Notes under the pieces: generated by a model
Seen by the model: the letters and a program-made list of their open reading frames with translations, nothing else
Database searches by the model: none
Told to the model about the DNA's origin: nothing
Origin: Methylomagnum ishizawai
Lineage (GTDB): Bacteria > Pseudomonadota > Gammaproteobacteria > Methylococcales > Methylococcaceae
DNA length: 64,000 nucleotides
Assembly (NCBI RefSeq): GCF_900155475.1
Contig: NZ_FXAM01000001.1
Span: 3,482,881-3,546,880 of the forward strand
Reading direction: 5' to 3'
Position numbers and translations under genes: made by a program
In this document: positions 15,897 through 26,661 of the stretch, piece after piece
Layout: each line of letters opens with the position of its first letter
Position numbering within the stretch: the first letter of the stretch is position 1

Positions 15897-17405
15897 GTGA
15901 AAACAACAGTGTGGGTCGGATTGATACTGGGATTATGGGCCGCGCTGGCCGGACCCGTGGGCGCGGACGGGACGGCCCCGGCGAATCCCGAAATCCCCCC
16001 CGGCGCGGAATTGGCTCCGCAAAAACAAGCTTGGGAACAATCGGTGGGAGGCGAAATGGCCGCACGTCCCTTGCTCAAGGCCCGGCTGGCGGGCTGGCCC
16101 CGTAGCTTGCGGGCCGCACCGCCCGCGCCCGACACCGACCCCCGGACCTTCCTCTTGAAACTCGCCGCCGACACCTGGCGCGGCCTCGACGCCTTCACCG
16201 ACCTGGCCCACGGCCTGCCGCTGGACCGGGTCGAATTCGAGAACGGCGGCATCGCCCCGGAAACCACCCGCATCGGCGATTACACCAGTGTCACCAATAT
16301 CGGCTTCCATTTCCTGGCCGTGGCCTCGGCCAACGAACTCAAGCTCATCGACCGGGAACAAGCCCTGACCCGGCTCAAAGCCACCCTGGCTTCGCTCGAA
16401 CGCATGGAAAGCCATCGCGGCTTCTTCTTCAATTACTACAACACCACCACCCTGGAACGCACCAGCGATTTCATTTCCTTCGTCGATTCGTCCTGGCTGA
16501 CGGCGGGCTTGATGGTGGCGCGGCAGGCGTTCCCGGAACTGGCGGAGCGCTGCTCCCGGCTGATCGCGCAAGGCGATTACGGTTTTTTCTACGACGAAAA
16601 ATACCGGTTGATGTCGCACGGCTACCACGTCCCGCTCAAAACCCGCTCGGATTACCACTATGGCGTGTTCTATGCCGAATCGCGCCTTGGCAGCCTCATC
16701 GCCATCGCCCAGGGCGCGGTGCCGGAAGCCCATTGGTTCGCCATGTCCCGCACCTTCCCGCCGGACATCCAATGGCAAACCCGTCCGCCCCTGGGCCGCG
16801 TCGAATACGACGTGAATGGCTTCCGCTGGACCGGCGGGCATTACCATTGGCGCGGCCAGGACTACGTGCCGTCCTGGGGCGGCAGCCTGTTCGAGGCGCT
16901 AATGCCGCGCTTGGTGCTGGACGAAAGCCTATACGCCCCCGCCAGCCTGGGCCGCAACGGCGACATCCACACCGCCATCCACCGCCAATATGCCACGGAA
17001 GACCTAGGCTTTCCGGTGTGGGGCATGTCGCCGAGTTCCAATCCGGGGAATGGGCGCTACCAGGAATACGGCGTGAAACCGCTGGGCATCGCGGGCTATC
17101 CCTCCGGCGTGGTGACGCCGCACGCCGCCGCCTTGGCGCTGTTGGCCGAACCCGAGACGGCGACGGCGAACCTGCGGAAACTGGCCGCGCTGTATCCCAT
17201 CTATGGCGATTTCGGCTTTTACGACGCGGTCGATCCCCAGAGCGGGGCGGTGGCCTATCACTATCTGTGTTTGAATCAGGCCATGATCCTGGTGGCCCTG
17301 GCCGATACCCTGGCCGACCACGCGATACAAAAGTTATTCGCGGCGGATGCGGGGGTAAAGAAGGTGTTGCCCTTGTTGGGGATCGAGCGCTTCGCGGGGC
17401 AGTGA
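15897..17405 (+). CDS. Secreted glucoamylase-like (GH144-type) glycoside hydrolase
   Basis: This 502-aa protein starts with a signal peptide (VKTTVWVGLILGLWAALAGPVGA, cleavage near residue 24). The mature part has a helical-barrel pattern of the putative glucoamylase domain (PF10091): TSVTNIGFHFLAVASANEL (near 130), FFFNYYNTTTLE (near 180), FVDSSWLTAGLM, and the C-terminal YPSGVVTPHAAALAL (near 400). Characterised relatives include endo-beta-1,2-glucanases (GH144). The GTG start is chosen because it begins the signal peptide. Divergent to the binding-protein gene, it would supply oligosaccharide for import. Confidence 0.75.
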   Translation: MKTTVWVGLILGLWAALAGPVGADGTAPANPEIPPGAELAPQKQAWEQSVGGEMAARPLLKARLAGWPRSLRAAPPAPDTDPRTFLLKLAADTWRGLDAFTDLAHGLPLDRVEFENGGIAPETTRIGDYTSVTNIGFHFLAVASANELKLIDREQALTRLKATLASLERMESHRGFFFNYYNTTTLERTSDFISFVDSSWLTAGLMVARQAFPELAERCSRLIAQGDYGFFYDEKYRLMSHGYHVPLKTRSDYHYGVFYAESRLGSLIAIAQGAVPEAHWFAMSRTFPPDIQWQTRPPLGRVEYDVNGFRWTGGHYHWRGQDYVPSWGGSLFEALMPRLVLDESLYAPASLGRNGDIHTAIHRQYATEDLGFPVWGMSPSSNPGNGRYQEYGVKPLGIAGYPSGVVTPHAAALALLAEPETATANLRKLAALYPIYGDFGFYDAVDPQSGAVAYHYLCLNQAMILVALADTLADHAIQKLFAADAGVKKVLPLLGIERFAGQ

Positions 17406-17432
17406 AAATTTGGCATCGCAAGAGGTATTGAC

Positions 17433-18761
17433 ATGAGCGAAACAGAGCTTTTGCGTATCCGGCAAATCAAGGTCGATGGCTTATTCGGCTTGTATAACCA
17501 TTGCATCGACCTGAATCTGGAAGAGCGGGTGACTATCCTGCACGGACCGAACGGGGTGGGGAAGACGGTTTTATTGCGGATGGTGAACTCGCTATTTAAT
17601 CGGCCATGGGGAGGCTTGGCGGGTAATGAAGAAAAAAGCGTATTGGCAGAAATTCCATTTTCTGAGCTTTATATTCTTATGGAAGATGGCAGGGCAATAA
17701 CTATCACCAATAAATCCAGCACTGATCTCAAAACAAATAAGGCGTGGAAATTCCGATTTTTTCTCACATCCAAGGATAGGAAAGTAATAGCCGAAGATGA
17801 ATTGTTATTTGGCACGATAAAACGAGAACCGGCATGGCTGCGTAATTTTCGCAGCATGTTTAACGCTAATTTAATAGATACCCAACGATTGTCCCGTCTC
17901 GCGTTTGACGATTTTTCCACCAAAGCCAATGCCGTAACCGGAGGAAAAGGGCAATATGGTGCCCATAACGTTTTCCAGAACGCCGGCCCGGTCACCCTGA
18001 TTGTTTCCGACACCTCTCCACCACCACCCAAGGGGTATATGCTTTCGACCGTGGTCGATTGTTCTGAGGATTTGCAACTTCGTATCCGCGATGCTCTTGC
18101 GAGTTATGGGCAGCAATCCCAAATTCTGGATCATACCTTTCCACGACGAGTACTGCGTTTTTCAGGCGATCTTTTGGACGTTGCAGAATTAAAAGCCAGT
18201 ATGAATGTAATAGATAATAAACGGGAAGAATTTAGGAGGATCAATTTATTAGATGATAGCGAAACATCATCTTTCGACCTTTCCACGCTAAACGAGATTG
18301 AAGATACCGAAAGACGAGTGATGACGCTTTATGTGAAGGATACGGAAGCCAAGTTCAAAGCCCTTGAAGATATAGCCAATAGGATAATTGGGCTCTTAAA
18401 TATATTAAACGCCAAATTTGTTCATAAGCAGATAAAAATCAAAAGGGAAATTGGATTTGTTGTCGAAGCACCAAGCGGGTTGGAATTCAATATAGAACAC
18501 TTATCCTCTGGCGAGCAGCATGAAATGGTGTTGCATTACGATCTTCTATTTAAAGCCCAAAAAAATACCTTGGTACTCATCGACGAACCCGAACTTTCCC
18601 TCCATCTCGCTTGGCAAAAACGATTCCTCCCCGACCTTCTGGAAATCGTGAAAATCGCGAAAATCGACGTGCTATTAGCCACCCATTCCCCCTATATCGT
18701 CGGCGACCGCAGCGACTTGATGGTTTCTTTAGACGCGGAGGCGGTTGATGTTTCCGTCTAA
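17433..18761 (+). CDS. PARIS-like AAA ATPase (AriA-like)
   Basis: This 442-aa protein is an ABC-type AAA15/OLD-family ATPase. Walker A is GPNGVGKT (residues 39-46), the signature LSSGEQHE is near 360, Walker B is LVLIDEPELSLH near 380 and the H-loop is LLATHSPYI near 415. The middle (100-330) is helical. Together with the overlapping DUF4435 gene, size and order match the anti-phage PARIS system (AriA ATPase scaffold + AriB toprim effector). It is AT-rich (21 GC in 60 at 18361-18420) against GC-rich neighbours, a sign of transfer. Other ATPase/toprim pairs such as Gabija are less likely because no UvrD-like helicase is adjacent. Confidence 0.8.
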   Translation: MSETELLRIRQIKVDGLFGLYNHCIDLNLEERVTILHGPNGVGKTVLLRMVNSLFNRPWGGLAGNEEKSVLAEIPFSELYILMEDGRAITITNKSSTDLKTNKAWKFRFFLTSKDRKVIAEDELLFGTIKREPAWLRNFRSMFNANLIDTQRLSRLAFDDFSTKANAVTGGKGQYGAHNVFQNAGPVTLIVSDTSPPPPKGYMLSTVVDCSEDLQLRIRDALASYGQQSQILDHTFPRRVLRFSGDLLDVAELKASMNVIDNKREEFRRINLLDDSETSSFDLSTLNEIEDTERRVMTLYVKDTEAKFKALEDIANRIIGLLNILNAKFVHKQIKIKREIGFVVEAPSGLEFNIEHLSSGEQHEMVLHYDLLFKAQKNTLVLIDEPELSLHLAWQKRFLPDLLEIVKIAKIDVLLATHSPYIVGDRSDLMVSLDAEAVDVSV

Positions 18762-19605
18762 AACCGCAGGGGAAATCGAGACGGAAATCCTAATGACGCG
18801 GCAGGTCCATAAAGGCAGCTTCCTCTTGGTCGAGGGGCCGGACGATTCCAAATTCTGGAAGACACGCATCAGCGACGAGGAATGTCAAATCGTACTGGCC
18901 GAAGGCAAGAACAACCTGCTCGGAGCCATCGAAAAACTCGATGCCCGTCGATTTTCCGGCGCTTTGGGCATTATCGACGACGACTGCGATAGCCTCGAAA
19001 GCTGGCGCTGCCCCTCTTGCAATTTATTGGTCACGGATGGGCGGGATTTGGAATGTATGCTGTTTTGCTCGCCCGCCTTGGAGCGGGTTCTAGCGGAATT
19101 AGCCGATCCTGCGAAAATCCAGCGCTTCGAGCAAAAATCCGGGGTATCAATTAGGGCAAGGCTAGTGGAAAACGGACTGGCTTTTGGGCGATTACGCTGG
19201 CTAGATAAACGGCAAAACTGGGGATTGGACTTCAGCAAAAAAATCACACCGAGCCGATTTATCGACCGCAAAACCTGGGTTGTTAAACGGACAGAGTTGT
19301 TGGATGCCACTTTTCAAGCGGCGGGTTTGAAGGATGCGGAGCAATTATGCGCCTTACTGGAGGCACTGCCCGCCGCCGATCCTTGGTTGATATGCCAAGG
19401 CCATGATTTGGTGGAAATCCTACGATTGGGTTTGCACGAAGAGGTATTTGGCACGCTTAAATCAAGCTATGGCAAAGACGACATCGCCCGGAATCTACGG
19501 CTGGCTTTCCATACCGCCGAACTCGCGCTGACCAAACTCTACCGGGATATCCGTGGCTGGGAACTCAACAATACCCCTTACCAAATTCTACCGGCGGTGG
19601 CATAG
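18748..19605 (+). CDS. PARIS-like DUF4435 TOPRIM effector (AriB-like)
   Basis: This 285-aa protein carries a TOPRIM-like core of the DUF4435 family: LLVEGPDDSKFW (residues 26-37, catalytic Glu) and GALGIIDDDCDSL (about 71-83, the metal-binding Asp cluster). ESWRCPSCNLLVTDGRDLE follows. In PARIS systems AriB is held by AriA, is released by phage anti-restriction proteins and then cuts host tRNA. The ATG at 18748 lies inside the 3' end of the ATPase gene (14-nt overlap), so the two are coupled. The sugar ABC ATPase begins 6 bp after its stop. Confidence 0.8.
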   Translation: MFPSKTAGEIETEILMTRQVHKGSFLLVEGPDDSKFWKTRISDEECQIVLAEGKNNLLGAIEKLDARRFSGALGIIDDDCDSLESWRCPSCNLLVTDGRDLECMLFCSPALERVLAELADPAKIQRFEQKSGVSIRARLVENGLAFGRLRWLDKRQNWGLDFSKKITPSRFIDRKTWVVKRTELLDATFQAAGLKDAEQLCALLEALPAADPWLICQGHDLVEILRLGLHEEVFGTLKSSYGKDDIARNLRLAFHTAELALTKLYRDIRGWELNNTPYQILPAVA

Positions 19606-19611
19606 ATTCCC

Positions 19612-20685: not shown

Positions 20686-20787
20686 ACGCGGCGGGGCGCG
20701 GTCCTGGCGGTATCCTATGCCGCAGGAACAACACTAAACTTGCCTCGTCCGACATCCCCAAAACTCCCTTCTGAAGAGGAACAGCGC

Positions 20788-22107
20788 ATGACCCAAAACA
20801 AACTCCCCAAAATCGCGGTCGTCGGCGGCGGCGCGGGTGGCCTGGAACTGGCCACCCGGCTCGGCGGCGACCTGGGCCGCCGGGGCCAGGCCGAAATCAC
20901 CCTGATCGACGCCACTCGCACCCATATCTGGAAACCCCTGCTGCACGAAGTCGCGGCCGGCACCCTCGATTCCCACGACGACGAACTCGACTACCTGGCC
21001 CAGGCCAACGCCAAGCATTTCCGCTTCGTGCTGGGCCGCATGGACGGCCTGGACCGCACCCGCAAGGAAATCCACCTCGCCCCCATGCACAACGCCGAGG
21101 GCCGGGAAATCATGCCGGCCCGGACCTACCCCTACGATTTCCTGGTCATCGCCGTGGGCAGCGTCTGCAACGATTTCGGCATCCCCGGCGTGGCCCGGCA
21201 TTGCCTGTTCCTCGACACCACCGAGCAGGCCGAGCAATTCCAAATCCGGCTGATGGAAGCCTATCTCCACGCCCACGCCACCGGCGGCAGCCGGGGCGAG
21301 GGCGAACTGGACATCGCCATCGTCGGCGGCGGGGCTACGGGGATCGAGCTATCGGCCCAATTGCACCAGGCCACCCGCTTGCTCAACGCCTACGGACTCG
21401 ACAACGTCCATCCCTCCGACATCAAAATCCATCTGATCGAAGCCTCGCCCAGCCTGCTCCCAGGACTGCCCGAACGCCTGTCGCGGGCCACCTTGCACCA
21501 GCTCGAAAGCCTGGGCGTGGAAGTGCTATTGGGCGAAAAAGTGGTGGAAGTGACGGAAGCGGGCGTCGCCACCCATTCGGGCCGGTTCATCCCGGCAGCG
21601 CTCAAGGTGTGGGCGGCGGGCATCAAGGCACCGGATTTCCTGCAAGGGCTGGACGGCCTGGAAACCAACCGCATCAACCAGATCAAGGTGCGGCCTACGC
21701 TCCAGACCACGGTGGACGATGCCGTGTACGCCATCGGCGATTGCGCCTCCTGCCCCTGGCCCGCCAAGAGCGATACCGCCACCGTGCCGCCCCGCGCCCA
21801 ATCGGCCCACCAGATGGCGAGCCTGGTGCTGAAAAACCTGCGCCGCGCCCTGCGCGGCCAATCCCAGGCCGATTACCACTATCACGATTACGGCTCGCTG
21901 GTTTCCCTGGGCAAATACAGCACGGTGGGGAACCTGATGGGCAATCTGATGGGCACGGTGATGATCGAAGGCTTGATCGCCCGCTTGGTCTATCTGTCCT
22001 TGTACAAGATGCACCAGTGGGCGCTGTTCGGGACGCTGCGGGTGGGCCTGCTGATGGTGGCGAACTTCTTCCGGCGGCGCTTGCGGCCTAGGATCAAGCT
22101 GCACTGA
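20788..22107 (+). CDS. ndh: Type II NADH dehydrogenase
   Basis: This 439-aa flavoprotein passes electrons from NADH to quinone without pumping protons. The FAD-binding motif is VVGGGAGGLELA (residues 10-21), the NADH-binding motif is IVGGGATGIELSAQL (near 180), and VYAIGDCASCPWP (near 315) is the second FAD contact. The last 70 residues include an amphipathic or hydrophobic membrane-binding segment (MGNLMGTVMIEGLIARLVYLS). A GAAGAGGA ribosome site precedes the ATG. The end overlaps the convergent TPR gene by 14 nt. Confidence 0.95.
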   Translation: MTQNKLPKIAVVGGGAGGLELATRLGGDLGRRGQAEITLIDATRTHIWKPLLHEVAAGTLDSHDDELDYLAQANAKHFRFVLGRMDGLDRTRKEIHLAPMHNAEGREIMPARTYPYDFLVIAVGSVCNDFGIPGVARHCLFLDTTEQAEQFQIRLMEAYLHAHATGGSRGEGELDIAIVGGGATGIELSAQLHQATRLLNAYGLDNVHPSDIKIHLIEASPSLLPGLPERLSRATLHQLESLGVEVLLGEKVVEVTEAGVATHSGRFIPAALKVWAAGIKAPDFLQGLDGLETNRINQIKVRPTLQTTVDDAVYAIGDCASCPWPAKSDTATVPPRAQSAHQMASLVLKNLRRALRGQSQADYHYHDYGSLVSLGKYSTVGNLMGNLMGTVMIEGLIARLVYLSLYKMHQWALFGTLRVGLLMVANFFRRRLRPRIKLH

Positions 22108-23731
22108 GGGGGGTTCCGGGTTGGGATAGCAGGTTGCGGAGGCGTTCGGCCCTTGCGGTTTGGCCTAGCGCCTCGGCGGCTTCGAGGGCGGTTTTTAGGA
22201 TGGCGATGCCTTTTTCCGGGTCGCCGCGTTGGCGGAGTAATTGGCCGTAGTGTTCGCCGACAGTAGCCAAGCCGTCGGGAACTTGGAGCCTCGTGAAGAT
22301 TTCATATGCTTTCCCCAAATGCTCAAAGGCTTGACTAAACTGCTTCTGTTCCAACTCAATACCGGCGATTTTGAATAAAGTCACCGCCGTCGAACTTACA
22401 TCGCCCAGGAGCTTGTAAATTGGAAGCTCTTCTTCCTCGCGGATACGCAACGCCTCATCCAACTGTCCCCGCGCTTGCAAAATATCCGCGACTCTTCCTT
22501 GAGTTACTGCCTGTGAACGAATATCACCTACAATAGCGAAAGTTGGAATTAAGTCATCATGGTATATATGTAACGCTCTTTCCATTTCACCTCGCATTAG
22601 CAAAATATCGGCAATTTTACCTTGTACCATTGCTTTTGAACGAACATCACCTAACCGCTCATAAACTGGAAGCTGTTCTTGCTGACGAATGCTTAACGCC
22701 TCGTTTAATTGTCCTTTTTCCTGAAGAATATCGGCTATTCGCCCCTGTACCACCGCCTTCTCACGCACGTCGCCCAGCCGCTCGTAGACCGGCAACTCCT
22801 CCTCACGAAGAATACGCAGCGCCTCGTCCAACTGCCCCCGTGCCTTCAGGATGTCAGCAATCCGTCCCTGCGTTATCGCCATCTCACGTGCATCTCCCCA
22901 TTCTCGAAAACCCTCAAATACTAAATTCAGTTGACCTAGCGCTTCATCTAAATCACCAAATAATCCAAGTATTTCAGCACTTTCCGCTAATGCTTTAAAA
23001 ACGCCTTTCTGGTCATCCGCATTTTGAAAAGCATTCGCCGCATAGCCAAAGACATTTAAAGCTTGAATCCACTCCCCAAGACTTCGATACAAATAGCCTA
23101 AGTTATTCCCCAAAATCCCGCGCTCAGAGCCGGAAAGCTCTTCGCCCTTGTACGCCAAGAAATCCCGGATTTCCCCAATCCGCTGCAATCGCTCATCCCG
23201 CGTGGCGCTCCCCAAATCCAGCGGCTCGGGCCAAGCCATACTTTCCAACTCGACCGGCCAGGAAAAATCCACCACCCCCGACCGCCATTCCCAAGCATCC
23301 GGCGCGGCTTGGGCGAACTCCCGGATTTGATGTTCCAACAGCCACAACACCAAAGGCCGCCGACACAACCGGGCAATCCAATCACGATGCACATTGAAGC
23401 CATACAACCGGGAATCGTCCTTCCCCTGCCCCAGCCACAAATCCAAGCCCACCAAATGCAGCGCCCCCGGCGCTTGGCCATGGTGCTCCAACCAGCGCTC
23501 GAACGCCGCGAAATCGGCGAAACCATTGGCGTCCAGCCGCTCATGGGCCGCTTCCCCCGCATCCTGCCGTAACCTCTCGATCAACTGGTCGCGATAAACG
23601 GGCCGGTTATAGCCAGCCAGCACCAGGGCGAAACGCCCAGCGGCACCTTCCAGCAGCCGCTTGAGCCGGGTCCATTCCCCCGCGTGTTCCGGCGGTGGCG
23701 TCACAGGTCCGAACAGGTCGGCGGCATTCAT
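22094..23731 (-). CDS. TPR-repeat protein, partner of the adjacent ATPase
   Basis: This 545-aa protein has an unusual N-terminal globular domain (residues 1-160: RFALVLAGYNRP, LHLVGLDLWLG, then RPLVLWLLEHQIREF and WRSGVVDFS). It resembles P-loop-less modules found at the head of bacterial TPR sensor proteins. Residues about 200-530 are helical repeats, including four consecutive 41-residue units (123-bp period) of the form QGRIADILxxxGQLxEALxI. Nucleotide divergence and AT content differ between units (22 GC in 60 at 22921-22980). The ATG overlaps the ATPase stop, so the two act together. Function unknown; a sensor of a STAND-like conflict system is an inference. Confidence 0.7.
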   Translation of the reverse strand: MNAADLFGPVTPPPEHAGEWTRLKRLLEGAAGRFALVLAGYNRPVYRDQLIERLRQDAGEAAHERLDANGFADFAAFERWLEHHGQAPGALHLVGLDLWLGQGKDDSRLYGFNVHRDWIARLCRRPLVLWLLEHQIREFAQAAPDAWEWRSGVVDFSWPVELESMAWPEPLDLGSATRDERLQRIGEIRDFLAYKGEELSGSERGILGNNLGYLYRSLGEWIQALNVFGYAANAFQNADDQKGVFKALAESAEILGLFGDLDEALGQLNLVFEGFREWGDAREMAITQGRIADILKARGQLDEALRILREEELPVYERLGDVREKAVVQGRIADILQEKGQLNEALSIRQQEQLPVYERLGDVRSKAMVQGKIADILLMRGEMERALHIYHDDLIPTFAIVGDIRSQAVTQGRVADILQARGQLDEALRIREEEELPIYKLLGDVSSTAVTLFKIAGIELEQKQFSQAFEHLGKAYEIFTRLQVPDGLATVGEHYGQLLRQRGDPEKGIAILKTALEAAEALGQTARAERLRNLLSQPGTPLSAA

Positions 23732-25053
23732 GGCGCGGCATAGGCGGGCAAGGTCCGCACCACTGGATGCGAACGCCGCCAAAAGCTGTTGTATTCCAAC
23801 AATGCCCCGTAATACAGCAATTTGCCGACCCGCTCCCGGTCGTCCTCTGACAACCGCGAATCATCTTCCAAGCCATCCACCCGCCGCAGCAAGGCGAAGT
23901 CCTCGGCGGCGAGTTGATAACGGTAATCGGTGGCGTAGCGCTTGACGGCCCGCTCGGCGGCGGCACGGTCGAACAACTCGCCTTCCGCCTCGATGTAGGC
24001 GTAATTCAAAAGACGCAGCAAATGGCGCGGATTACCGCCGGAATAGCGGATGAAATAATCCAGCGTGGCGGGTACGTCGAACAATTCCGGCGCGGCCCGC
24101 TTCAACACCATCTCGCGCATGGCGGCATAGCCTTCCGGGTCGGGCCGGGCCTCGTCCAAGTCCACCTTCTCGCTCAGCTTGATCATGGGCAGATGGAACA
24201 GGTCAGTGTAGATGTTGAGCAGAAAGGTCCGGTGGTTGAACACCAGCGCAATCGGGGCGCAATAGATGAAATCGGCCTGGATTTGCTGCAACTGGTGGAT
24301 GTTGTCGATGAAGAAGGCTTTGCTGTCCTCCCTCGATAGACGGTCGGTGCCATCGACCAGGAATAAGAGGCGGTCGCCCAGCCCGCGCCGCCCCAAAGCG
24401 CCCCGCGCCGCGACCAGCAAATCATTGAACGCCTTGGAGAAATCCGCATAACTGTTCTTGACCACGGTACGGAGTTCTTCCTTGTAGGTCGAATTGACCT
24501 TGAAAGAACTGGTCAGGCCGGAAAACAACTTGCTCAGGAAAGGAATACTGGCCTGGACTTCGGCACCAGACTTGATTTCAGCGGCTAATTCGCGAGTACG
24601 TTCATTCTTCTCGATCTTTTCGCTGAACCAGCCGGTCAGATTCCGCAAAAACACCAGATCGATCACGACGCCCTCATCCTCGATTCGGGCCAACAACTCC
24701 GCCGCCAAGGCCAGCAGGACATCTGGGTAACCCAGATTATGGGTATCCAACCGCTCCAGCGTGTCTAGCATGACCACGTAAAACTGGCCCGGCTCATGCA
24801 ATTCGACCGCCAGCCGCCTGAGTTCGGTGCTTTTGCCGCAGCCGATGGGACCGCTATAAAGGAAGTAATTACCGCCGTTGGGATTGCCTCCCATCAAGGC
24901 GCGGATGATCTTGGTATGGTTGAAATTGCCCCGCGCCTTGGCGGTATCCACATAGCGCGGGTCGTCGTAGGCCAAGGGCTGGTCGAAGCGCAACTCCCGG
25001 TTGGCTGCGAGCAAGGTCCGGGGGGGTTGGTAAAGAGTGGGTGGGTTTGTCAT
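23728..25053 (-). CDS. P-loop ATPase, partner of the TPR protein
   Basis: This 441-aa AAA/STAND-like ATPase has Walker A SGPIGCGKST (about residues 67-76), a likely Walker B LLFLVDGTDRL (about 227) and HRTFLLNIYTDLFHLP after it. SGGNPRHLLRLLNYAY (about 340) matches the sensor-2/lid region of archaeal-type and KAP-like ATPases. The last 100 residues look like a winged-helix. I start at ATG 25053, with GGAAGG 7 nt upstream. A GTG at 25098 is possible. Its stop overlaps the TPR gene start (ATGA). An ATPase with no sensor of its own, coupled to a TPR protein, looks like a STAND protein split in two. Confidence 0.7.
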   Translation of the reverse strand: MTNPPTLYQPPRTLLAANRELRFDQPLAYDDPRYVDTAKARGNFNHTKIIRALMGGNPNGGNYFLYSGPIGCGKSTELRRLAVELHEPGQFYVVMLDTLERLDTHNLGYPDVLLALAAELLARIEDEGVVIDLVFLRNLTGWFSEKIEKNERTRELAAEIKSGAEVQASIPFLSKLFSGLTSSFKVNSTYKEELRTVVKNSYADFSKAFNDLLVAARGALGRRGLGDRLLFLVDGTDRLSREDSKAFFIDNIHQLQQIQADFIYCAPIALVFNHRTFLLNIYTDLFHLPMIKLSEKVDLDEARPDPEGYAAMREMVLKRAAPELFDVPATLDYFIRYSGGNPRHLLRLLNYAYIEAEGELFDRAAAERAVKRYATDYRYQLAAEDFALLRRVDGLEDDSRLSEDDRERVGKLLYYGALLEYNSFWRRSHPVVRTLPAYAAP

Positions 25054-25239: not shown

Positions 25240-26661
25240 ATGCGACTCCCCGACTTCCGTTCCTCCCGTGTGCTGGTGGCCGGCGACCTGATGCTGGACC
25301 GCTATTGGCACGGGGCCACCTCGCGCATTTCGCCGGAAGCCCCGGTGCCGGTGGTGCGGGTGGAAGGGATCGAGGAGCGGATCGGCGGCGCGGGCAACGT
25401 GGCCCTCAACATCGCCGCCCTGGGCGCGGGGGCCGAAGTCCTGGGCTATTGCGGCGCGGACGAGGCGGGTGCCCGCCTGACCGGCTTATTGGAACAAGCC
25501 GGGATCGACTGCCGGATCGAACGGGTGGCGGGCCTGCCCACCATCACCAAACTGCGCGTCCTCAGCCGCCACCAGCAATTGATCCGGCTGGACTTCGAGC
25601 AAGGTTTCCACGGCATCGATCCGGCGGCCTTGGCGGCACGCTTCGCCGCCCGCCTGCCGGAAGTCCAGGCCGTGGTGCTGTCCGACTACGGCAAAGGCAC
25701 CCTGCACCACATCCGCCCCTTGATCGCAGCCGCCCGCGCCGCCGGGAAGCCCATCCTGATCGATCCCAAGGGCGGCGATTTCGACAAATACCGGGGCGCG
25801 ACCCTCATCACCCCCAACCGCGCCGAATTCGAGGCCGTGGCCGGTCCCTGCCACGACGACGCCGAACTGGCCGCGAAAGCCCGGCATATGGCCGAGCGGC
25901 TCGACCTCGACGCGCTCTTGATTACCCGCGGCGAACAGGGCATGACCCTAGTCCAGCGCGACGCCCCCGACCTGCACCTGTCCGCCCACGCCAAGGAGGT
26001 CTACGACGTGACCGGCGCGGGCGATACCGTGATCGCCGTGCTGGCGGCGGGCCTCGCCGCCGGGATGACCCTGGCCGCAGCCACCCCGCTGGCCAACCTC
26101 GCGGCGGGCCTGGTGGTGGGCAAGCTCGGCACCGCCAGCGTCGGCCTGGAGGAATTGGCCCAAGCCCTGCCGGGCGGTCCCGCCCAGCGGCGCGGAGCCA
26201 TCGCCCTGGCCGATCTCTTGCCGGTCCTCGACGCCGCCCGCCGCCAGGGCGAGAAGATCGTCGCCACCAACGGCTGTTTCGATATCCTCCATCCCGGCCA
26301 TATCCGTTATCTACGGGAAGCCCGCGCCCTGGGCGACCGTTTGGTGGTATTGGTCAACAGCGATGCCTCGGTGCGCCGCCTCAAAGGCCCGGAACGCCCC
26401 ATCCATCCCCTGGCCCACCGGATGGAAATGCTGGCCGCGCTGGCGGCGGTCGATTGGGTCGTGCCCTTCGAGGACGACACCCCCCGCGCCGCCATCGGCC
26501 ACATCCTGCCCGACGTGCTGGTCAAGGGCGGCGACTACGCCGATATCAGCGCCATCGCCGGCCACGAACTGGTCTTGGCCCACGGCGGCGAGGTCAAACT
26601 GTTAAGCTTCATCGATGGCTATTCCACCACCCGCCTCATCGAAACCCTGCGCCAAGCCTGA
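25240..26661 (+). CDS. hldE: Bifunctional heptose 7-phosphate kinase/adenylyltransferase
   Basis: This 473-aa enzyme makes ADP-glycero-manno-heptose for LPS core. The N-terminal ribokinase-like domain (1-315) has GGAGNVALNIAALGA (47-61) and the catalytic DVTGAGDTVIA (about 260). The C-terminal cytidylyltransferase-like domain has TNGCFDILHPGHIRYL (about 345), with the HxGH motif, and the ISTT-like YSTTRLI near the end. Length is that of E. coli HldE. It shows that the cell has a Gram-negative LPS core with heptose. Confidence 0.96.
   Translation: MRLPDFRSSRVLVAGDLMLDRYWHGATSRISPEAPVPVVRVEGIEERIGGAGNVALNIAALGAGAEVLGYCGADEAGARLTGLLEQAGIDCRIERVAGLPTITKLRVLSRHQQLIRLDFEQGFHGIDPAALAARFAARLPEVQAVVLSDYGKGTLHHIRPLIAAARAAGKPILIDPKGGDFDKYRGATLITPNRAEFEAVAGPCHDDAELAAKARHMAERLDLDALLITRGEQGMTLVQRDAPDLHLSAHAKEVYDVTGAGDTVIAVLAAGLAAGMTLAAATPLANLAAGLVVGKLGTASVGLEELAQALPGGPAQRRGAIALADLLPVLDAARRQGEKIVATNGCFDILHPGHIRYLREARALGDRLVVLVNSDASVRRLKGPERPIHPLAHRMEMLAALAAVDWVVPFEDDTPRAAIGHILPDVLVKGGDYADISAIAGHELVLAHGGEVKLLSFIDGYSTTRLIETLRQA

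Follow-up and report, generated by a model that had tools for sequence, protein, structure and literature searches.

Can a STAND-type receptor be divided between two chains, with the ATPase on one and the sensor on the other, and would such a pair serve immunity? The question is raised by a locus of Methylomagnum ishizawai (GCF_900155475.1, NZ_FXAM01000001.1, positions 3,482,881-3,546,880, forward strand; these 64,000 nt are the stretch analysed and are called the window below), where the gene of an ATPase is followed by the gene of a tetratricopeptide repeat (TPR) protein whose start codon lies inside the ATPase stop codon (ATGA). A first-pass annotation, made from the letters of the window, took the pair for a STAND protein split in two, and its coordinates for both genes and their overlap proved exact. 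The ATPase and the N-terminal module of its partner constitute a widespread conserved operon, and the sensor end that follows the module is variable. We favour, stopping a little short of calling it probable, the reading that the pair is a two-protein STAND-type signalling switch that serves in conflict or in immunity against phages.

Linkage and Distribution of the Two Genes

A contig scan for relatives of the ATPase returned at least 449 confirmed matches, from which the best 80 loci were kept and searched with a profile of the partner module. At 64 of these 80 loci a homologue of the module overlaps the ATPase gene or lies no more than 600 nt downstream (within 100 nt at 52 of the 64), and at 7 more it is found 644-1968 nt downstream, with a ribokinase-like gene in between at L055 and L073. 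Of the remaining loci, four have the ATPase at the edge of a contig, one (L043) is a split copy, and no module lies near the ATPase in four; less than 700 nt of sequence is left at two of the latter (L063 and L071) and about 10 kb at the other two (L076 and L087). When the module was searched for in 61 genomes (that of M. ishizawai and those of relatives; 8 positive), all 18 module places adjoined an ATPase; the place at G011:C101 is broken and several others, including that of G020, end at contig edges. Locus L017 (G011:C101:296-1899) is a decayed pair, with an ATPase remnant of 122 amino acids (aa) and an internal stop in the module.

In 15 genomes selected for holding a pair, an ATPase is found about 1.5 kb away or closer for 21 of the 25 modules that are strong (E 1e-20 or better), and a linked module accompanies 22 of the 25 ATPases that are strong (E 1e-50 or better). 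Each genome contributes one pair to these figures by choice, and 5 weaker modules and 7 weaker ATPases were left uncounted. The four lone modules come from three cyanobacteria with several pairs (G458:C317, G467:C313, G468:C34 and G468:C44:81537) and are possibly extra sensors that share one ATPase. The co-occurrence that the first-pass annotation had named as a check is borne out by the 64 of 80 best loci and the 18 of 18 module places, and the idea of a divided STAND survives the search for ATPases that occur alone. In 72 pairs, the distances between ATPases correlate with those between modules (Mantel r = 0.90; none of 1000 permutations above 0.12), which fits co-inheritance and is by itself no proof of contact. 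At L021 and L024 the partners are 92-95% identical and the ATPases just 72%, which suggests that recombination between the two genes occurs too.

The relatives come, as their records are named, from gamma-, beta- and deltaproteobacteria, cyanobacteria, Acidobacteria, Spirochaetia, Chloroflexi, Phycisphaerae and Methanothrix, with many metagenome bins among them; many of these host taxa are filamentous or aggregate-forming. The distribution of the ATPase is patchy: with the M. ishizawai genome included, any match was found in 5 of 41 genomes, and among 398 genomes of the phylum at least 10 gave strong matches (E 1e-30 or better) when no more than four candidates were scored in each. Some genomes hold several copies of the pair.

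The ATPase Resembles STAND and ORC Proteins

The ATPase contains a Walker A motif (GPIGCGKS, residues 68-75), a Walker B motif with D234, a helical insertion at about 109-222 and a lid with R319 and GG..R343, followed by a C-terminal winged helix. In 67 homologues, picked by hand from loci with near-complete open reading frames (ORFs), K74, D234, R319, G339, G340 and R343 are present without exception and the strict Walker A pattern is found in 66. The AlphaFold2 (AF2) model (pLDDT 91.5) has helices at 363-415 and then two short strands, consistent with the winged helix that had been read from the sequence together with the P-loop, and the alignments with several ORC, CED-4 and NLR chains extend to residues 426-441. 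In VIA structure comparisons, where rows within 1 Z were counted as tied, the model was matched to TnsC (7mbw; Z 15.5, 289 residues aligned, 3.8 A), the archaeal ATPase 2qen (Z 15.4, 300 aligned, 4.7 A), ORC2 (Z 14.4, 253 aligned, 4.0 A), the NRC4 resistosome (Z 13.9, 287 aligned, 4.6 A) and CED-4 (Z 13.5, 287 aligned, 4.8 A); overall, the matches to 2qen, 2fna, ORC, CED-4 and NLRs have Z values of about 12-15. We take 2qen and 2fna to be STAND ATPases.

All Pfam matches of the M. ishizawai ATPase are sub-threshold (ATPase_2, AAA_16, ORC-CDC6-like, nSTAND_NTPase5, NACHT and others), and none of the STAND family profiles (ATPase_2, nSTAND_NTPase5, NACHT, AAA_16) reaches its curated cut-off. At E 0.001, the 67 homologues are matched by AAA_22 (49), AAA_16 (48), ATPase_2 (46), KAP (22), nSTAND5 (22), NPHP3_N (17), ORC-CDC6-like (16), AAA_14 (11), NACHT (9) and three other families; DAP3 matches one of them (E 5.1e-4). 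The best NCBIfam match is the Sll1717 family (NF047389, E 7.1e-11, residues 61-380), whose score of 41.9 bits is below the curated cut-off of 75; a literature search for the family name found no paper. Among solved structures none is close by sequence, the best having E 0.018. No repeat family of Pfam was matched on the 441-aa chain, and the repeats sit on the adjacent gene.

Two candidate properties of the ATPase were rejected. The first is a fused N-terminal effector: the long upstream ORF extensions at L021, L032, L040 and L062 are, judged by eye, out-of-gene translation. The second is membrane insertion through the helical insert, which is not supported because the maxima of the 19-residue Kyte-Doolittle mean are low (median 1.16 and highest 1.57 for the 67 ATPases; median 0.92 and highest 1.56 for the insert), with no clear transmembrane segment in any of the 67. 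What the protein has in common with STAND ATPases is a P-loop with Walker A and Walker B and, in the AF2 model, an ORC/CDC6-clade AAA+ core with lid and winged helix. It is predicted to be a STAND/ORC-type switch that carries neither a sensor nor a recognised effector.

The Partner Module Is a Predicted Pseudo-ATPase

No Pfam family describes the N-terminal module of the partner, a domain made up of its first 165 residues: one of 69 members matches AAA_18 at E 0.0073 and the rest match nothing at E 0.01. In the AF2 model (pLDDT 87.2) helices alternate with five strands. The best Foldseek match of this model is ORC2 (E 1.1e-4), and the best VIA match is the D1 domain of p97 (Z 12.2, 144 aligned, 3.4 A), which covers model residues 8-158 and is tied with further AAA+ domains. 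The P-loop that had been found missing from the M. ishizawai module is missing from the whole family, since the Walker A pattern (GxxxxGK[ST]) occurs in the first 110 residues of none of the 69 homologous modules; N113, R116 and D145 are invariant in all 69. An AAA+ fold combined with the loss of Walker A implies that the module is likely a pseudo-ATPase, i.e., a degenerate AAA+ domain. The notion of a split STAND thus stands as far as the STAND/ORC-like core of the ATPase and the wide conservation of the pair are concerned, and needs to be amended for the partner, whose module appears to be a degenerate AAA+ domain itself and whose sensor is not always made of TPRs.

The Sensor End Is Variable

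The TPRs of the M. ishizawai partner are well supported (PF13424, E 2.6e-25, six stretches in Pfam), as had been annotated. TPR_12 is found in 42 of the 47 partners of up to 847 aa. Among the 27 partners of 881-1900 aa, which are all cyanobacterial except that of L013 and several of which end at contig edges, nSTAND1 is present in 26 and WD40 in 21. The L013 partner combines the module with DUF4062 (E 3.3e-18), NACHT (9.3e-12) and an FGE-type domain (6.8e-56); PMC13174449 reports DUF4062 as a TIR-like NADase, with some members being anti-phage. The module is therefore the constant part that precedes differing modules, mostly sensor-like or switch-like, and the sensor end can hold an entire second STAND. 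According to Kaur et al. (2021; PMC8195603), STAND receptors can bear an effector or adaptor domain in the position of the module, and by domain order this is the position that the module occupies in the nSTAND1/WD40 partners. The M. ishizawai genome contains a second pair (L016, G000:C1:3018105-3021838), whose TPR array is composed of 10.1 DNA copies of a 144-bp repeat with 96% match and is a candidate for copy-number variation; no counterpart of L016 was found in the sister species (G001).

It is conceivable that the pair is a split MalT-like or AfsR-like transcription regulator, the TPR protein sensing a metabolite or a peptide and controlling an ATPase that binds DNA through its winged helix and so switches genes. 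The MalT-like TPR profile PF17874 matches the partner (E 3.1e-8, below cut-off), the AfsR model and, better, the HaaT model of TPR proteins from RiPP biosynthesis (E 1.2e-14) coincide in part with the TPRs at scores that fall far short of their cut-offs, and the ATPase, with its winged helix at the C-terminus, has a predicted fold akin to those of the DNA-binding ORC and TnsC. We nevertheless regard such a regulator as unlikely. A separate DNA-binding output domain was not recognised, the recurrent clusters of neighbours (kinase-like, ABC-transporter-like and AAA genes on mixed sides; syntenic housekeeping genes) include no recognised target, and the partner may carry WD40, nSTAND1, NACHT or DUF4062 instead.

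The TPR Array Differs between Sister Species

The sister species has the pair at the same place, and the adjoining alignments are about 93-95% identical at the DNA level. These alignments break at window position 23117 and pick up again at 22261, with just three short matches in between (78-83% over about 110 bases). The ATPases of the two species are 94.3% identical in aa sequence (synonymous divergence, dS, 0.22) and the modules (residues 1-170) 96.5% (dS 0.13), versus 59% with saturated dS for the array (residues 206-500); the last 45 residues of the partner are again 82% identical (dS 0.28), and the edge is marked by a stretch where the DNA is identical. The GC content of the array is 0.47, compared to 0.54 in the sister, 0.63 in the module and 0.58 in the ATPase gene. 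The AT-rich patches that the first-pass annotation had taken as a sign of transfer are thus real and are mostly the TPR array, but the whole pair, being syntenic between the two species, is not a recent import.

Simple reshuffling of repeats is unlikely to be the sole cause of the difference, because the sister gene nowhere offers a 90% match to any of the 54 sixty-base windows of the array (0 of 54), compared with matches to 65 of 85 windows of the ATPase and 36 of 38 of the module; the mean identity of array windows to the sister gene is 65%, against 45% for a shuffled control. A donor elsewhere in the M. ishizawai genome was also rejected, as only the gene itself matches, and the nearest full-length array in the 61 genomes is that of the sister (59%), parts of arrays of the same family being 46-75% identical. 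Judging from these alignments, the TPR array at the M. ishizawai locus appears to have been swapped through recombination, with the core left unchanged.

Array exchange with a constant core holds at this locus and is not a rule of the family. In 14 other comparisons between loci, the C-terminal part of the partner is the least conserved in 6 (at L026/L027, for example, identity is 90% for the ATPase, 83% for the module and 64% for the C-terminal part) and shares this rank with the module in 1, and another part is less conserved in the remaining 7. Between cyanobacterial loci it is often the module itself that is most divergent.

A Proposed Switch and the Case for Immunity

Beyond the observed gene order and conservation, the two computed folds, the lack of Walker A and the array replaced here, we infer docking, gating, an output and a role in defence. 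The first protein would be an active ATPase with a nucleotide-binding domain, lid and winged helix, whose chain has no sensor and no recognised effector. The dead AAA+ domain of the second protein most likely docks on this ATPase and is fused to a variable ligand-binding part, which here would be the TPR array. Binding of a ligand to the array may alter the docking, whereupon the ATPase would bind or hydrolyse ATP and assemble, and the response would start. The output could be an assembly on nucleic acid, given the TnsC-like and ORC-like fold; alternatively, a host factor could be titrated or an unlinked effector recruited. We favour conflict or immunity as the purpose of this switch because an array exchanged on a constant core is what would be expected of a specificity module in an arms race.

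A more ambitious version, which we put forward as doubtful, is that such pairs represent a modular class, so far unnamed, of prokaryotic immune receptors made of two proteins, in which a shared STAND/ORC ATPase acts as a helper for interchangeable sensors that all bear one pseudo-AAA+ docking tag, and in which the array is swapped as a specificity cassette. The sensors in question range from TPR arrays up to complete nSTAND1-WD40 receptors. Plant sensor-helper NLR pairs offer a parallel to this division of labour.

Several observations weigh against an immune role. No enrichment of PADLOC families was detected beside the pairs: 8 families were matched in 100 neighbours and 48 in 100 control genes (E 1e-15), so that the defence islands in which the first-pass annotation proposed to look did not materialise in the sampled neighbourhoods of other pairs. 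The 100 neighbours were drawn from 308 candidates around non-cyanobacterial pairs, the nearest 150 being thinned by hand to remove likely antisense ORFs; cyanobacterial loci, two duplicate loci and the window itself, and with it the PARIS-like pair described below, were left out. The 100 control genes were taken from 158 that lie on arbitrarily placed stretches in 19 genomes. Genes were called crudely, as the longest ORFs, and among the controls some families represent many models on one protein (e.g., PD-T4-6). No effector enzyme was recognised in the ATPase or the partner at this locus, and neither phage records nor viral contigs, the latter scanned with one pattern and tblastn as confirmation, gave a match to the ATPase. 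Exchange of the array is no general feature, as in 7 of the 14 comparisons the greatest divergence is in the module or, twice, in the ATPase; at L021/L024 the ATPase is 72% identical and the module 95%. In addition, fast change of the array could result from relaxed constraint.

The same doubt arises from 9 to 12 cyanobacterial loci (including L058, L063, L074-L076, L083, L087, L090 and L091) that keep ftsQ-like and ftsZ-like neighbours, named by reading their sequences, with the ATPase in opposite orientation. Such a fixed position looks like vertical inheritance and is unusual for a defence gene. Together with the ORC-like folds predicted for the ATPase and the module, it might indicate a housekeeping AAA+ complex similar to ORC or a clamp loader, with one live and one dead subunit and the repeats as a scaffold, that functions in, e.g., cell division or DNA handling. 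We consider this improbable in view of the patchy distribution described above, the presence of more than one copy, even several, in certain genomes and the array replacement seen here. Matches of the ATPase were also found in four plasmid records, all cyanobacterial and two of them predicted to be conjugative, at 25-29% identity.

Positions of the features within the window (1 is its first letter)
Feature	Positions	Strand	Basis
Predicted STAND/ORC-like AAA+ ATPase gene, 441 aa	23728..25053	-	ORF, AF2 model and homologue alignment
Partner gene (TPR protein), 545 aa	22094..23731	-	ORF; ATGA overlap with the ATPase gene
Partner N-terminal module, predicted pseudo-AAA+, residues 1-170	23222..23731	-	Model, alignment and absence of Walker A
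Partner TPR array, the putatively exchanged stretch, residues 206-490	22262..23116	-	PF13424; alignment breaks versus G001
Partner conserved C-terminal end, about residues 491-545	22094..22261	-	Gapless alignment to G001 resumes

The M. ishizawai pair was thought to have no housekeeping neighbour, but it is flanked by two genes of metabolic families on the opposite strand, an NDH-2-like oxidoreductase gene that is convergent to it (20740-22107; Pyr_redox_2) and an HldE-like gene with PfkB and cytidylyltransferase parts that is divergent from it (25249-26661). Further out are DnaB-like and alanine-racemase-like genes, named by reading the sequence only. Against PADLOC 2.0.0, the ATPase matches only mad8 (E 0.0062), and the partner matches generic TPR models (best 1.6e-9) as well as Cas5d models (1e-5) overlapping the TPRs; neither protein is convincingly matched by a model specific to one system.

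At a distance of 2.5 kb from the ATPase-TPR pair lies a PARIS-like pair (17433-19605, + strand). Its first gene encodes an ATPase of the AAA_21/PtuA/AriA type (AriA E 3.6e-23, two PtuA models scoring slightly better) and the second a DUF4435 AriB protein (E 2.6e-19). The 2.2-kb stretch that holds them (17404-19609) is absent from the sister species, where its flanks are four bases apart; since the site is otherwise continuous, this part of the chromosome gains or loses defence genes.

Comparison with Known Systems

The first-pass annotation knew of no named system with this composition. A two-gene system of the same design, nSTAND2, has been predicted to act against invaders (Kaur et al. 2021, PMC8195603, section 15 and the legend of Fig. 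6C): adjacent genes encode an active and an inactive STAND protein, which would form a hetero-multimer, and the inactive member is fused to variable modules, most commonly GT4 or HEPN. As far as these sections describe it, the likeness extends to the two-gene operon, the active and the nucleotide-binding-dead STAND/AAA+ proteins and the fusion of the dead one to variable modules. The modules differ, in a comparison made by description, being GT4 and HEPN there and TPR, nSTAND1-WD40 or DUF4062-NACHT-FGE here. The pair may therefore be a member of nSTAND2 in which TPR or WD40 replaces GT4 or HEPN, an alternative that overlaps with the switch we favour, being of the same type, and that we rate as unlikely. 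In addition to the shared plan, it is supported by the one ATPase of 67 that matches DAP3, Dap3 being named in the same source as a relative of nSTAND2 together with RNA12 and CR-ATPases; on the other hand, neither GT4 nor HEPN is among the families listed (25 of 108 and 25 of 77) for 74 partners.

The iSTAND ternary system, as described in an excerpt of PMC7159879 (2020), also places an inactive STAND domain beside a separate active AAA+ protein, but it includes MoxR and vWA genes, whereas the flanks at this locus are genes of metabolic families on the opposite strand. The "Npun2340/2341 family" of MNS-clade STANDs, mentioned in PMC8195603 and compared here by name alone, hints at adjacency by its consecutive Nostoc gene numbers. 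In a literature search for the same design, only the two Kaur papers came near; most subscription journals, preprints and all supplements lay outside this search.

Canonical STAND receptors (bacterial NLR-like proteins, CED-4 and plant resistosomes) share with the pair the core of nucleotide-binding domain, lid and winged helix and the use of a repeat sensor, but here a second chain carries the sensor, preceded by a putative pseudo-AAA+ domain, and the ATPase has no recognised effector domain. The module is a domain unrecognised by Pfam that is constant in the sensor half of what we propose to be a two-gene switch, from Gammaproteobacteria and cyanobacteria to Methanothrix archaea. The two congeners, having nearly the same ATPase and module and different arrays, provide a natural experiment: exchange of arrays between the two genes makes both the identity of the ligand and the coupling between sensor and ATPase testable, which is hard with single-chain STAND receptors. 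It is possible that the pair is a variant of the predicted two-gene STAND design and represents a branch of nSTAND2.

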